28,898 nucleotides of DNA from a virus. The position numbers and the translations under genes were made by a program. The DNA lies in IMG/VR virus record IMGVR_UViG_3300042557_000443, positions 1 through 28,898 of that record; one strand, written 5' to 3'. Of the stretch, positions 264 to 23,630 are shown in pieces (positions within the stretch are counted from its first letter, which is position 1; every line of letters starts with the position of its first letter). A model generated the notes under the pieces. It saw nothing but the letters and a program-made list of their open reading frames with translations. It was not told the DNA's origin and made no database searches.

Positions 264-2972
264 TTATCTTTGTGAAATGATTTGTCTGTTGGTGACTGAA
301 CCAGCTACCTTTACTGAGTTGACCTTGGGTGATCCTATGGTCCTTGTCAAGATCATTGTTCCGGTGAAGCCCCTGATGCCACCCAACCTACACCGGATGC
401 TTGCTGTTTCAGCCTCGGTAACCGTGGTGGGGGTAAGTAACCCACCAAGAAGAGTGGTCGTTGTGCCTATGGATTGAGCATCATCTGGATCTTCCGCTGC
501 AAACGCAATATCATATTCCGAGTTCTGGCCGGGAAGGGACTGGATGTTGATCTGTGCGTCGGTAAACCGCTTGCGTTCCATTGTTCCGAGGTCGTATCCT
601 CTGGTTGTAAGGGCTGCGTTGATTGCCGGGGACACGATAGCAGCAGAGTTATCCACGTTTAGAGTGTCATTGGAACTTTCAGATGCTTCAATTTGATGCA
701 ATCCACCATTGGAAGTCACCGCATAGATGTTGTTCCTCTCGCTTGCGCTGCCAATTACAAAGTCCTTGATTAAGAATCGAGAGTCTCCAAAGGTGTCTAG
801 TGATTCCCATCCTTTGTTTAGGAAGTTATACACCAAAATAGCGTTATTCCCGTAGGAATCGCCAGCTCCCGGAATGGAATCAAGCGGAACGGCAAGGTAA
901 TACCTATTTTCAAATAAGATCCCCACTGCCTTGTCGGCATAATCAGCGTTGATACGGTCGATATACGGCTGAATGTTCTTGGAAAGCGGTTCTTCAGTGC
1001 CTCGCAGGTTGTAATCGTTAAGGAACTCAATCCCATACACGCCATCGTCAGACAAAAAGAGCATTGCGTTACCGCGCATGACAACAGACTTGCGGGCTAG
1101 GCATCCAATCTCAGATGTAAGTTCCTTGACGGTGACATCCAGAAGGCTTCCCAGCGTCCCCTTAACAAGATGAAGGCTATTCCTGTTCAGGACAACCAAC
1201 CCGTCGTCATAGAAGCCGTGCATTGCTACAACAAAGTCTGCTGTTCCACCACTGACACGGAATTGGTTCTCGATCTGGTCAAACGTAGTAGTGTCTAGAA
1301 TGTCTGATACAGATATTTCATCGGTAATCTTGCGGCTAGTGTATGTCACGTTGTTATACGCGCCAGATTGATCGTAATAGAACGGAACCCACAAGCGGCG
1401 TTGGAAATGAACACCCCACGGTGCACCCGGTTGGTGCATGAATCCACCGCCTACGCTGAATCTGCCACCAAACTCAAAAATATCGGTGCTTGACGTGCTG
1501 TAATCGCCAACTGGAGCATACCATGCAATCGTCGTTGTGGTTGCCGACACAACTTGGTATTCTTTTCCAACCATTTCAGCAAAATCAACAGTTTCCGCTT
1601 GGCGCACAATAATAATGTCGCCTTGTTTGATTGTTACGTTACCAGCAACTGTCGCAGTTACCAATCCGCTTACAATCTCGACATCTTTTGCTTGAATGTT
1701 GAAAGTTTGTGGCTGGGTGTAAGCTCCACCGGGAGATAGCGTAAATCCATCTGTAACCGTAGCAACCGCAACGCCAAATGTAGTGCTTGTCGAAATGCTC
1801 GCAGCCAAGAACGTAAACGTGTCTTGCCCAGTTACTGTGGCAACAGTGTATGTCCCGCTGGGTGGGGTTCCGTTAGTAAGCCCCGCGACAGTAATCGAGG
1901 TTCCCACTACTAGCCCGTGTTCACGCAGATTCACCGTAACAACGGTGTTTGGACTCGCCGTGGCGTTTGAACTTGCGGAAATGACTGGCCTTCCGTTTGG
2001 ATACCACTCCAAGGCTTGTTGTCCTTCACGGAACAGCATCACCTTGTCAAACACCTGAATCATGTCAGTGTCAGCACCAAGGGCTTCTCCAGCAGGATAC
2101 GGGATGTCTGTAATCGCGTAACCATCCAAGTCGATCTTCTTAGCAACAGTATCCAGCGCAATAATCACATACTCTTTGTTGCTGTCGTTTGGATCGCTGA
2201 ACAAGCAGGAAGCTAGGACGTTGGCGGCAGCATCGTCGTTGATCGGAGCTTGTGACAACGTGCCAGCACCTGAAACAGCCGTAGTTGCAGCCGTAACAGG
2301 GAACGTCATGGTTGTTGCTGAAGCGTAAGTCAAAAGCCTAAGTCCATTTGGATCTGTCCCAGTAAAGGTCAATCCAGCAATTAGTCCGTATCCAATAGTG
2401 TCGATGGCAAACCCATGCCCAGCAGTGATTGTGATTGTCACTACGTTGGTGGCGAGTGAGGACGAGGCGATTGCCTTTGAGGTGGACGTAATTACCTCAG
2501 AGATTGGCTCAACGGCAGAAACGGTGTATGTCCCAGACCCACTGGCAAGCGCATAGGTGATCGTAGATGCCGAAGCCGTCGCCGCAGTAAACACCCCATT
2601 AGGATCGCTTCCAGTCGTGTAGCCAATCCCAGCAATGTTTAGCGTTGCCCCCGGAGCTAGTCCGTGAGCAGATCCAGTTGTAAGCGTAACAACGCCAGCG
2701 GTAACTGACGCTGCCGTAATCAAGACGCTTGTTCCAGTCAGCAAGAATGGCAACTGCAAGGGAGAACCTCCCGTAGTCAATGCACCTGTCCTACTCACCA
2801 CGTTCTTCCGTGGCTTCCAATACCCTTCCATGCGCCCATTCAAAGACTCCCTCACCTCACCCTCTTGGAGTTGGTTAAGTTGAAGCCTTTGGTTCACGCG
2901 ATCAAAGAAACGATCAGCATCTTCGCCAATCGCAGCATCCATCGCGCTACCACTCTGGGCAAACTGGGACAT
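264..2972 (-). CDS. Tail nozzle-like protein (T7 gp12 / P22 gp10-type), 902 aa
   Basis: Large structural protein. The N-terminus (about 1-75) has a helical stretch followed by GRMEGYWKPRKNVVSRTGAL, resembling the start of tail-tube B/nozzle proteins. Residues about 520-740 carry the nozzle-like part: WGVHFQRRLWVP, VAMHGFYDDGLVVLNRNSLH, an EIGCLARKS segment and a VYNFLNKGWES segment, as in short-tail hub proteins. Between about 80 and 500 lie three or four diverged beta modules of roughly 70 residues, each with a core like xHGLxxGxxxxxxG (AHGLAPG, GHGFAID, EHGLVVG). Its start ATG overlaps the stop of the upstream small gene by one base (TAATG), implying coupled translation. The family assignment is by pattern recognition of the C-terminal half; a stabilisation/needle-hub role as in P22 gp10 is the alternative. 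Confidence 0.7.
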   Translation of the reverse strand: MSQFAQSGSAMDAAIGEDADRFFDRVNQRLQLNQLQEGEVRESLNGRMEGYWKPRKNVVSRTGALTTGGSPLQLPFLLTGTSVLITAASVTAGVVTLTTGSAHGLAPGATLNIAGIGYTTGSDPNGVFTAATASASTITYALASGSGTYTVSAVEPISEVITSTSKAIASSSLATNVVTITITAGHGFAIDTIGYGLIAGLTFTGTDPNGLRLLTYASATTMTFPVTAATTAVSGAGTLSQAPINDDAAANVLASCLFSDPNDSNKEYVIIALDTVAKKIDLDGYAITDIPYPAGEALGADTDMIQVFDKVMLFREGQQALEWYPNGRPVISASSNATASPNTVVTVNLREHGLVVGTSITVAGLTNGTPPSGTYTVATVTGQDTFTFLAASISTSTTFGVAVATVTDGFTLSPGGAYTQPQTFNIQAKDVEIVSGLVTATVAGNVTIKQGDIIIVRQAETVDFAEMVGKEYQVVSATTTTIAWYAPVGDYSTSSTDIFEFGGRFSVGGGFMHQPGAPWGVHFQRRLWVPFYYDQSGAYNNVTYTSRKITDEISVSDILDTTTFDQIENQFRVSGGTADFVVAMHGFYDDGLVVLNRNSLHLVKGTLGSLLDVTVKELTSEIGCLARKSVVMRGNAMLFLSDDGVYGIEFLNDYNLRGTEEPLSKNIQPYIDRINADYADKAVGILFENRYYLAVPLDSIPGAGDSYGNNAILVYNFLNKGWESLDTFGDSRFLIKDFVIGSASERNNIYAVTSNGGLHQIEASESSNDTLNVDNSAAIVSPAINAALTTRGYDLGTMERKRFTDAQINIQSLPGQNSEYDIAFAAEDPDDAQSIGTTTTLLGGLLTPTTVTEAETASIRCRLGGIRGFTGTMILTRTIGSPKVNSVKVAGSVTNRQIISQR

Positions 2973-3232
2973 TACGCGTAGTAAACAACAACCACACCGG
3001 ATGTGAGAACCACGGAACTGAAGTCACCGCCAATACCCAAGCCCGCAGGAAGGGTAATAGTTTGCAACCTCGATGCACCCGTGATGCTCCCAGACGCACT
3101 AGCCACAGTAGCCAACACAGCGTCATTGACCACCTGAATCCAGCGGATCTTGCCAGTGTAAGTAGTTGCCGCAGTGGAAAGCACAATGCCTCCACCCATT
3201 CCTTGCAGATCGTAAGATACAGGACTTGCCAT
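2972..3232 (-). CDS. Small virion-like protein, 86 aa
   Basis: 86 residues, Gly/Ala/Thr/Val-rich with no membrane segment or charged clusters: SGSITGASRLQTITLPAGLG and a C-terminal SGVVVVYYA. This looks like a small beta-structured virion component. It is the first gene after a likely promoter (3279-3306) and its stop overlaps the ATG of the 902-aa tail gene in a TAATG arrangement, so it probably belongs with tail assembly. I do not recognise a named family. The ATG at 3230-3232 has no Shine-Dalgarno; the leader is AT-rich. Confidence 0.7.
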   Translation of the reverse strand: MASPVSYDLQGMGGGIVLSTAATTYTGKIRWIQVVNDAVLATVASASGSITGASRLQTITLPAGLGIGGDFSSVVLTSGVVVVYYA

Positions 3233-4271: not shown

Positions 4272-4277
4272 GCCTGT

Positions 4278-4305
4278 ATTTTATCATACCGATAACGCGT
4301 GTCAA
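4278..4305 (-). promoter_or_regulatory. Promoter immediately upstream of the HNH gene
   Basis: Minus strand TTGACA (4305-4300), 16-base spacer, TAAAAT (4283-4278). Only six bases separate the -10 box from the ATG at 4271, so a normal start site 6-8 bases downstream would give a leaderless mRNA for the HNH gene. Confidence 0.6.
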
Positions 4306-4445
4306 CAAAATAATGCAAGGCCCGTTGGAAAATAATTCCTTTGGCGAGTGGACCGTATGGGCATTTCAGCTGACCACCGGATGCGACTCCCCCCGCCCCC
4401 CTACTGCACCCAGCTTGCATTAGCACGTGACTTGCAATTCAATCA

Positions 4446-4541
4446 CCCGTTTGAATGAAACGCCCGTTTGAATCCAATCCTTAGCAACCTAGTAATGTAT
4501 CGCGCCATGTCAAACGCTCGTTTGAATCACCCGTTGGCATG
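4446..4541. repeat. CCCGTTTGAAT direct repeats
   Basis: Copies: CCCGTTTGAAT at 4446-4456 and 4463-4473 (17 bases apart), a one-mismatch copy CTCGTTTGAAT at 4517-4527, and a more diverged CCCGTTGGCAT at 4531-4541. A partial match CCCGTTGGAA occurs at 4321-4330. The size and spacing suit binding sites for a phage regulator or initiator; no protein can be assigned. Confidence 0.6.
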
Positions 4542-4730
4542 ACTATCGCACGTAGCTTGCACCTGCTTATTTGTTGCGCTTGTGCATTGCCGTGCCAAGT
4601 GGCCTGATAGAGAGACGATAGACTGAAATCGCTTTGAATCGTCCGCCCTTGCCATAGTCCCATATTCACGCCCAACGCGCCACAAGGCATCCTCGAAAGA
4701 TTCCAGTTTCCCTTGCCGTTCCGTGTCCAT
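4527..4730 (-). CDS. Doubtful small ORF, 67 aa
   Basis: A 67-codon reading frame inside the control region, on the minus strand. The product is hydrophilic and plausibly helical (KLESFEDALWRVGREYG, then FQSIVSLSGHLARQC), which is more protein-like than the other frames here. Against it: no recognised family, its end lies within the repeat family, and no promoter or ribosome site is evident. It could be a small regulator encoded next to the control region, or chance. Confidence 0.22.
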   Translation of the reverse strand: MDTERQGKLESFEDALWRVGREYGTMARADDSKRFQSIVSLSGHLARQCTSATNKQVQATCDSHANG

Positions 4731-4742
4731 TTCTAACCGAGC

Positions 4743-4772
4743 TTGACACGTTTTCGAATATCTGATTAAAAT
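4743..4772 (+). promoter_or_regulatory. Likely main early promoter
   Basis: Perfect -35 TTGACA (4743-4748), 18-base spacer, -10 TAAAAT (4767-4772, one mismatch). It points into the early operon. Transcription would start near 4779, leaving a leader of almost 600 bases before the first accepted gene at 5374. The -35 context is again GCTTGACA. Confidence 0.65.
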
Positions 4773-4825
4773 CCATCTGGAAGAAAGACTAAGATAAGAT
4801 TCTTTCCCACGTGACTATCATTCGA

Positions 4826-4948
4826 CGAAGCGAAGCGAAGTCGGGACAAGCCTTCCCCATGAGTCACTGTCCTTCGTTGGAGCGGAGCGGAGACGATTAC
4901 AATTACTATCAATGGTACATTACTATCGTACGGCGGAGCGGAGCGGAG
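4826..4948. repeat. Three blocks of 5-base CGRAG repeats
   Basis: CGAAGCGAAGCGAAG at 4826-4840, GGAGCGGAGCGGAG at 4879-4892 and CGGAGCGGAGCGGAG at 4934-4948. Each block is three tandem copies of CGRAG. ATTACTATC occurs at 4902-4910 and 4919-4927, and ACTATC at 4814-4819. The blocks lie just downstream of the early promoter, in the transcribed leader, so they could act as DNA or RNA binding sites. Confidence 0.65.
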
Positions 4949-4963
4949 ACTGGTACGGCACTT

Positions 4964-5011
4964 AGCGTGGGTTTATTGTTATCGTACGTTATGTACGCGC
5001 TTGGGTTTATT
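4964..5011. repeat. GTAC dyad with flanking GGGTTTATT direct repeats
   Basis: A perfect hairpin CGTAC-gttat-GTACG (4983-4997) lies between AGCG (4964-4967) and CGCT (4998-5001), which can extend it. GGGTTTATT follows each outer arm (4969-4977 and 5003-5011), 34 bases apart. The mix of dyad and AT-rich direct repeats resembles origin or operator architecture. Confidence 0.5.
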
Positions 5012-5373
5012 TTGTGGCGGGTGGAATGGATTTCAGGATTGATTTCCCGGAGCCGTTCCCTTGCTTGTCTTGCTTGCTCTTCCCTAGTCCCTGCTAAATC
5101 CCGACAAGCGACTATAAGGGAGCTACGCTGTGCGTCTTGCTATCCTCTTAGAGTCCGAGGCGGCGTCTTTTGTACTAGGTTATTTGCCTGCGTTCCGGTT
5201 GTTTTGCTCTTGGTCCGGCTTTTACTGTGGCCGGAAATCCCTTGTATTTACTAGGTTTTCGGCATGGCCTGAAACTATTTTGAGATTTTGGAAACTATTT
5301 ATCGACAATGGGATTTCCGTGTTGTAGTGTCTTCTCAGTTGCAAGACGCAACCCCACACACACACACAAAACG

Positions 5374-5592
5374 ATGAAAAACACTGACATCAAAACAGCC
5401 GCAATTTACGCTCCCGGCAAGGCAATCTTTGGGACGTGCTTACTTGACCTCACAAGCAAGGCATGGGATCTCGGCATTAATCTTACCGGTGCCGATATCC
5501 GCAAAGCATGGCCAGCCGATACTGGCGGGGTATGGCTTGAAGGTGCTTGTGAGGATAAACACTACACAATTGCCGGAGATATCGCCAACTAA
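5374..5592 (+). CDS. Unknown early protein, 72 aa
   Basis: First accepted gene of the early operon. The product starts MKNTDIKTAAIYAPGKAIFG and contains LTGADIRKAWPADTGGVWLEG; it is soluble and I recognise no family. An in-frame upstream ATG at 5308 would add 22 residues, but I prefer 5374 because it follows a CA-repeat leader ending AAAACG-ATG-AAAA that is nearly identical to the leader of the next gene. A GTTGC/GCAAC hairpin (about 5339-5353) lies just ahead of that leader. No Shine-Dalgarno is present. Confidence 0.65.
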   Translation: MKNTDIKTAAIYAPGKAIFGTCLLDLTSKAWDLGINLTGADIRKAWPADTGGVWLEGACEDKHYTIAGDIAN

Positions 5593-5612
5593 TTTCACAC
5601 ACACACAAAACG

Positions 5613-5894
5613 ATGAAAACAGAAAACAAAACTGTGACGCTTGCTGGAATTGAATTCCTTCCCGCTGAAATCCGCACAGCAATTGACGAGGGCCGGGAAT
5701 GGCTTGCCAAGGGGCGGACGCTCTATTTTGTCAGTCATTCAGAAAACGCGGGATTTTCCGCCCGTCCGGTCTATTGGCAGCGTGGAAACCTGCCGCTTGT
5801 GGCGCGTGGAAGATTCCGACTCATGACGGCTGGGGAAGTAAACTCCATGATTGGCTTTGAGCTTTGCCTTGCAGCGGAAGGGGGGGCAAAGTGA
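5613..5894 (+). CDS. Unknown early protein, 93 aa
   Basis: Starts MKTENKTVTLAGIEFLPAEI, with a helical stretch (TAIDEGREWLAKG) and a strand-rich middle (FSARPVYWQRGN). No family recognised. Its CA-repeat leader is a near copy of the one before the preceding gene. The stop overlaps the GTG start of the next, membrane-protein gene (GTGA), suggesting translational coupling. Confidence 0.7.
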   Translation: MKTENKTVTLAGIEFLPAEIRTAIDEGREWLAKGRTLYFVSHSENAGFSARPVYWQRGNLPLVARGRFRLMTAGEVNSMIGFELCLAAEGGAK

Positions 5895-22634: not shown

Positions 22635-23630
22635 TTAGTAAGCAATCTTGCCGTGTGCTTGCGGATGCTTGACACAAAGAGTGCCAGCAACGTCAACGTA
22701 GCCACGCTCGCCACCACCTTGGTTCTCAAGACGAGTTCCGCCCATTGGGATCAGGGTGTTGAAACCAAGATACTTAGGGTTAAGGACGTAACCGACGTTG
22801 GTCGATGCGGTCGGCATACAGCTTGGGTTGCCGTTGACGATCTTCACGATACCGAAGTCGGAATCATAGAGGTTGACCGAAAGCGTGATTGCCTTGCTGG
22901 TCGCGTCTTGATTGACATGATAAACATTGTTCGTGCTGACGGATGGAGCGCGGGTGAAGCCACTGATGATTTGACGAAGCGCAGTATTCGCAACAAGCGT
23001 CAGACTGTTCATCTCGCCATTCTTACTGAAGATCGAACCCAACATGGTGTTGAAGGTCGATTCGGTAACAGTGGTGGCAAGGATCGAACCGGAAGGGGTG
23101 CGATAATCAGCAGGAACAGCATTGGTAGCTTGGGCAGTAGCTTGAATCCACTTGCCAAGGCCACGCATACCGTAAGGAGTGCCAGCACCGTTTTCGACAG
23201 TCATTTCGTTGTCGGAAGCAATGGTAGCCTCAATGTCACGCTTGATTTCACGCATCGACTTTGCCTCAGCTTGAGCGACGTTGGCGGGACCAACGCTGGT
23301 AACAGCTTGTTGCAGATTCGACACGAGGTAATCGCGGCGCATGAGTTGGATGTAGTTACCCAGACGAGCGCGGTCAGCAAACTTGTCGCTGAACGAGGTA
23401 ACGTCGGAACCTTCGGAAATACCAGTCGTAACTGGGGATGCGAGGGAATCAACGGTCCACTCGGTGAACGTCGAAGCTGCCTTGCCTTTGGAGCAAAGCG
23501 ACAGGATTGGGGTTTCTTCTGGAGCAAGGATAGCAAGTTCGTTGCTGAGATCCTCACGGTTGGAGATTGCGGAACCCTTGCCAGTTTTGGCTTGGGGCGC
23601 ATTTGGTTGATAAGTAGCACTAATTGGCAT
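22635..23630 (-). CDS. Major capsid protein, SU10-like (DUF5309-type), 331 aa
   Basis: The N-terminus carries the family pattern NREDLSNELAILAPEETPIL followed by KGKAASTFTEWTVDSL, RLGNYIQLMRRDYLVS and AEAKSMREIKRDIEATIASD: the long spine helix of an HK97 fold. The later part contains GMRGLGKWI, a NTALRQIISGF helix and VYHVNQDATS. It follows the scaffold gene and has no N-terminal delta domain of its own, consistent with a separate scaffold. Length is typical for the family. Confidence 0.85.
   Translation of the reverse strand: MPISATYQPNAPQAKTGKGSAISNREDLSNELAILAPEETPILSLCSKGKAASTFTEWTVDSLASPVTTGISEGSDVTSFSDKFADRARLGNYIQLMRRDYLVSNLQQAVTSVGPANVAQAEAKSMREIKRDIEATIASDNEMTVENGAGTPYGMRGLGKWIQATAQATNAVPADYRTPSGSILATTVTESTFNTMLGSIFSKNGEMNSLTLVANTALRQIISGFTRAPSVSTNNVYHVNQDATSKAITLSVNLYDSDFGIVKIVNGNPSCMPTASTNVGYVLNPKYLGFNTLIPMGGTRLENQGGGERGYVDVAGTLCVKHPQAHGKIAY

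Follow-up and report, generated by a model that had tools for sequence, protein, structure and literature searches.

A conserved non-coding leader with covarying hairpins in a putative early-operon control region of freshwater tailed phages

What occupies a long gene-free stretch between a strong promoter and the first gene of a phage operon? The question is raised by IMGVR_UViG_3300042557_000443, a 28,898-base virus fragment analysed here at its full length (the window), in which a first-pass annotation had described a strong sigma70-like promoter followed by about 595 bases with no gene. The promoter, P1, was confirmed (Table 1), and the next plausible start codon after it is the ATG at 5374, about 595 bases past the expected transcription start. 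The picture of one long leader reaching up to the first gene is not supported as it was drawn: there is indeed no gene before 5374, but that gene is directly preceded by a second promoter-like sequence, P2, so the mRNA need not contain the 595-base leader.

Table 1. Features of the conserved non-coding region (window coordinates)
Feature	Position	Strand	Remarks
Left half, between P1 and the leftward genes	4272-4742		AAACGNNCGTTT dyads and C-run
Promoter P1, TTGACA-18-TAAAAT	4743-4772	+	agrees with the consensus at 11 of 12 positions
Predicted non-coding leader of the P1 transcript	4779-5373	+	start inferred from P1; conserved in 34 distinct leaders
Hairpin unit 1	4821-4845	+	stem CGAC/GTCG, loop GAAGCGAAGCGAA at 4827-4839
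Hairpin unit 2	4873-4897	+	stem CGTT/GACG, loop GGAGCGGAGCGGA at 4879-4891
Hairpin unit 3	4929-4953	+	imperfect stem, loop GGAGCGGAGCGGA at 4935-4947
Core element CGCG...GGAATGGATTT	4996-5033	+	from alignment; common to leaders with and without hairpin units
Conserved non-coding stretch with CTTGCTTGCTCTTCC element	5060-5290	+	mosaic around 5110-5180, with two alleles
AT-rich direct repeat GAAACTATTT	5271-5280, 5291-5300	+	immediately before P2
Promoter-like P2, TCGACA-17-TAGTGT	5302-5330	+	just before the first gene
Hairpin GTTGC-AAGAC-GCAAC	5338-5352	+	close to the predicted start of the P2 mRNA

On the plus strand of the window, the genes between 5374 and 15829 encode, among others, HNH, Erf, exonuclease and DnaC-like proteins; the minus strand encodes, among others, portal-like, major head, tail and endolysin proteins. 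Of the named phages C75C1 comes closest, its major head protein being 57.5% identical; its record gives no host, and two scans of genome contigs for a host returned no relative. Among three long relatives, two measure about 40 kb and have ends that overlap by 55 and 127 bases; the window is thus incomplete. Relatives were gathered by means of an 86-aa protein encoded at 2972-3232 (the best 80 of 118 viral loci encoding a relative), the promoter pattern (26 stretches) and a 118-aa protein (64 loci). The 86-aa protein is 80-100% identical in those best 80 of 118 loci. Matches to P1 and P2 on one strand occurred in 82 of 172 loci, and removal of copies and contained sequences left 34 distinct leaders including that of the window, with a median pairwise identity of 62%; the leader counts below use n = 33, L047 being left out (99% identical to L046).

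The leader is conserved in many freshwater phage contigs. The P1 pattern TTGACN-N17/18-TANN(A/G)T was present in 32 of 33 distinct leaders against 0.2% of shuffled ends, and the sole miss, L042, carries a similar sequence; the P2 pattern T(T/C)G(A/T/C)(C/T)A-N15-18-TANNNT was present in 31 of 33 against 3.3%. Where both promoters were scored (30 leaders), their -10 boxes lie 377-594 bases apart, and the order of promoters, CGRAG blocks and inner core is constant across relatives. With 34 distinct leaders, the window's included, keeping their elements in constant order, the leader is clearly not a product of chance.

A protein-coding frame conserved across the leader would speak against a regulatory stretch, and a tblastn search found none. 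The 147-aa open reading frame at 4811-5254 is interrupted by stops in 16 of 19 matches and the 65-aa frame at 5130-5327 in 31 of 64 (loci of one contig being counted repeatedly in both tallies), and neither was retained as a gene. These comparisons support the view of the leader as a conserved non-coding, presumably regulatory, region. The first gene (gene 1, 5374-5592) has relatives in only five contigs; among the 33 leaders it follows only those of the window, L002 and L003, although some contigs end soon after the leader. Since it follows 3 of 33 leaders only, the leader is not tied to this gene: the first gene varies while the leader persists. Control of the operon by a short leader peptide starting from the conserved ATGGATTT could explain why AATGGNTT of the core element is kept in 28 of 33 leaders, but the predicted peptides range from 5 to 64 residues and identical conserved DNA is read in different frames, and we regard this explanation as highly improbable.

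The most distinctive part of the leader is its repeats. Three CGRAG blocks had been noticed at the outset, and GRAGCGRAGCGRAG indeed occurs exactly three times, at 4827-4840, 4879-4892 and 4935-4948, with no further exact copy; allowing up to two mismatches gives five sites against a shuffle mean of 1.2, a number reached by 2 of 100 shuffles. The ATTACTATC repeats (4902-4910 and 4919-4927) and the GTAC dyads (4915-4918 and 4928-4931) of the same annotation were likewise recovered. The CGRAG blocks are the loops of hairpins with a conserved 13-nt loop, GNAGCGNAGCGNA. Strict units number 40, spread over 20 of the 33 leaders, and longer-loop variants were found in four more (L018, L024, L074 with E 0.41 only, and L075), so that the module is present in 24 of 33 leaders with one to three units each; nine short leaders lack units yet have P1 and P2. 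In the 40 loops all columns are invariant save three N positions, at which A, G, T and C are all seen. Forty occurrences of the loop motif are on the P1-sense strand and one is on the opposite strand.

The stems, by contrast with the loops, vary while their pairing is kept. Among 19 distinct arm pairs of the closing stems, 53 of 57 inner pairs are Watson-Crick, two are G-T and none is A-C, compared with 30.3 ± 3.3 Watson-Crick pairs for permuted arms (at most 42 in 2000 permutations). In 31 distinct units, 86.3% of stem cells pair (63.4% after shuffling), there are 30 two-sided changes against 9.1 in shuffles, and the covariation score is 0.684 against 0.252, a value reached in 0 of 500 shuffles, while slid controls gave at most 0.212. 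Columns 4-22 (GC 20, AU 6, UA 5) and 6-20 (CG 23, UA 5, UG 3) are paired in all 31 units, and at the closing pair C-G, U-G and U-A are all seen. The hairpins are thus real by stem covariation, and together with its loop the hairpin looks like a genuine, apparently undescribed control element. It may be read as a stem, a GNA/GNA internal loop, two GC pairs and a GNA triloop; tallying the inner GC/GC pairing in contigs fetched by the GC pattern is circular, and the only independent hints are AC/GT in L190 and GC/GT in L105.

With RNA as well as DNA parameters, folding programs reproduced this arrangement in unit 1 but not in units 2 and 3. The units of the window are no more stable than shuffles as RNA (z -0.47, -0.50 and +0.85) and have no excess stability as DNA (z 0.76, 0.61 and 0.12); the mean pairing probability over 40 units is 0.35. 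Unit 1 is matched by the covariance model at E 1.8e-07, being itself among the sequences used to build the model. One global RNA fold of the leader is unsupported in either form considered (form A, alifold -75.8 versus -75.4 shuffled; form B, -28.4 versus -23.0 ± 3.6), and in our reading of the list the strongest column pairs of a G-test mostly track allele blocks, not helices.

The reading that we tentatively favour, and consider quite possible, is that this region controls the early, rightward operon of a freshwater tailed phage and that the P1 transcript carries an array of hairpins acting in cis on transcription, in the manner of put or nut sites. The operon would be driven by the tandem sigma70-type promoters P1 and P2. 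Transcription from P2 would yield a plain mRNA whose 5' end bears a short hairpin and whose start region is CA-rich, while P1 would yield a longer transcript with the optional module of one to three hairpins in its first 200 bases. The hairpins would act as RNA on their own polymerase, or on a polymerase-bound factor, so that transcription from P1 continues through the operon. At the level of sequence, the conservation, the non-coding character, both promoter patterns, the covarying stems, the strand preference and the modular gain and loss are established; from these we infer the use of P1, the action of the hairpins as RNA and the cis effect on elongation.

Whether the hairpins act as RNA or as DNA has to be weighed with care. 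In PMC4686876 the rule for DNA mini-hairpins asks for a GNA loop and at least two G-C pairs, with a Tm of 78 C, and PMC4496689 describes the N4 early promoters as a GC-rich heptamer between inverted repeats, the stem bases being variable and the loop containing a sheared G:A; from the positions stated there we deduce that the heptamer is 5'-GCGRAGC-3' on the template strand. The plus strand of the leader might likewise extrude GCGNAGC mini-hairpins, to be recognised by a polymerase, a primase or a replication protein. The loop core, GC-GNA-GC with a free N, agrees with the rule as given in PMC4686876, and as GCGNAGC it matches the N4 heptamer as positioned in PMC4496689; the units also have flanking inverted repeats around that core. 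With the N4 promoters they share the GCGNAGC-type core, the variable stem bases and the position at an early operon, but they differ in the tandem GNA of a 13-nt loop, the sigma70-type promoters and the opposite strand sense for early genes (PMC4496689); with the d(GCGNAGC) mini-hairpins of PMC4686876 they share GC-GNA-GC and the free N, but here the core belongs to a natural phage genome and is enclosed by an outer stem that covaries.

Several observations argue against DNA as the acting form. No phage-encoded virion RNA polymerase was recognised among the largest proteins tested (PHROGs, Pfam and PDB sequence), the window being a fragment and the search in relatives G001-G003 covering their largest proteins only. 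Moreover, it is leftward rather than early transcription that would use the plus strand as template, the units are always downstream of a sigma70-type promoter where one was recognised, and DNA folding is without excess stability. In G001, a 1532-aa protein (L176 14059-18657) weakly matches YkuD (L,D-transpeptidase) towards its end. Action as DNA is a serious rival that we nevertheless consider unlikely; if true, the N4-type hairpin principle would extend to phages without an N4-type polymerase. RNA is ranked first as the candidate acting form on account of the position behind the promoter, the strand preference, the C-G/U-G/U-A steps and the occurrence of G-T without A-C at inner pairs.

If the hairpins act as RNA, they may do so in cis or in trans. 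Between P1 and P2, terminator-like sites were found for 8 of 33 leaders and for 11% of shuffles and are not a general feature; because no conserved terminator separates the two promoters, P1 transcripts should enter the operon, and for the same reason we favour cis over trans action. A separate small P1 RNA that acts in trans, perhaps as a sponge that sequesters a hairpin-binding protein, would account for the several copies of one loop per leader and for the terminator-like sites of those eight leaders, but the lack of a conserved terminator and the free N of the GNA loops speak against it, and we hold it to be very unlikely. RNA sponges that bind CsrA keep GGA in their loops, whereas here A, G, T or C stands at N and the CsrA-type GGA motif is not kept.

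Among cis-acting systems, put of phage HK022 suppresses termination without a phage protein and folds into two hairpins. The likeness lies in transcript hairpins just downstream of an early promoter and ahead of a long operon, and the units of the leader do lie close downstream of the predicted early promoter; they appear to differ from put in their loop, in forming one to three separate units and in being absent from some relatives. The lambda nut site consists of boxA followed by boxB and requires the phage's N-like protein. In our leader TGCTCTTCC, at about 5070, presumably resembles boxA (judged by eye), and no conserved first gene was found behind the 33 leaders. Antitermination fits the arrangement of the leader, but the reading is weakened by the lack of a visible need, since the early operon has no excess of terminators (of 16 terminator-like sites, 2 on its plus strand; 14.4 expected on both strands).

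The conserved non-coding region also reaches left beyond P1, to about 4300. Here AAACGNNCGTTT dyads, possibly operator or iteron sites, are repeated at 4438-4542, with other sequence in their place in some relatives, and 36 of the 37 relatives inspected share with the window a plus-strand C-run (a G-run on the minus), which lies at 4389-4401 in the window; C75C1 has a similar C-run in its divergent region (L173, about 23090-23110). Within 4480-4690 about 200 non-coding bases are highly conserved, with few indels and without a common open frame, and the minus-strand frames 4527-4730 (stops in 66 of 80 matches) and 4481-4690 (stops in 58 of 93) were taken as non-coding. An inverted copy of the core to the left of P1 (CTATGGCAAGGG) was dropped, 95 of 2000 shuffles being as good. 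Because the dyads and C-run adjoin P1, the region could be a replication origin, as had been proposed from the start, in which the RNA from P1 would prime or activate replication and whose parts would be the hairpins, the dyads, the C-run and the AT-rich repeats. The GC-skew analysis leaves this proposal with mixed fortunes: in all three long relatives the all-base cumulative skew bottoms out no more than about 1.1 kb from the leader and peaks about half a genome away, but the minima of third-codon-position skew lie at 11.0, 2.4 and 15.1 kb, away from the leader, and the all-base minimum coincides with the divergence of transcription, itself a sufficient cause. An origin here is quite unlikely in our estimation.

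The remaining elements of the leader lie towards P2. At 5110-5180 the two mosaic alleles comprise 8 and 25 of 33 distinct sequences, a sign of recombination. The hairpin at the expected start of the P2 mRNA folds as RNA at -5.4 kcal/mol (3 of 200 shuffles are as good), and by eye its stem letters differ in some relatives. An identical 24-base CA-rich start region, CACACACACACAAAACGATGAAAA, precedes genes 1 and 2 (5357-5380 and 5596-5619), with no Shine-Dalgarno sequence seen at either.

In 77 sources (731 kb) the covariance model gave 23 matches with E < 0.01, all in or beside leaders; over all loci fetched (some contigs twice) 97 of 103 matches to the loop motif were inside leaders, and five of the remaining six were cut or diverged leaders. 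Two stem-specific patterns retrieved 11 and 20 stretches from the viral collection, 4 and 11 of them from the phage family of the window and 7 and 9 from outside it, L194 and L200 being identical in sequence. The outside contigs yielded eight distinct hairpins with 6-9 stem pairs, of which the patterns fix four; L194 has at least four loops in series, and in L190 two types of unit occur. A simple ORF call places 5 of the 16 outside loci between genes and 11 within an ORF on either strand, and because of the latter some of these hairpins are probably due to chance. In the unrelated contig L197 (7861-7892) the hairpin loop sits in a perfect 9-bp stem running into a T-run, which is terminator-like. 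The hairpin stretches had no match in plasmids and phages, the core pattern no exact match in viral contigs, and Rfam, GOLLD and ROOL included, gave nothing at the gathering threshold (best sub-threshold match E 3.7). GOLLD and ROOL are long non-coding RNAs of phages or lake metagenomes; our leader differs from them in having neither an Rfam match nor a global fold. A literature search found no published description of such a phage leader. That the GNAGCGNAGCGNA-loop hairpin represents a widespread, undescribed class of phage control element, a self-contained polymerase-modifying module that spreads singly or in arrays between leaders and unrelated phages, seems to us unlikely.

The loop code and the natural stem variants together define an exact, testable element. 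If its predicted cis action on RNA polymerase is true, put and nut would be joined by an independent case of an RNA hairpin controlling an early operon, from uncultured freshwater phages.
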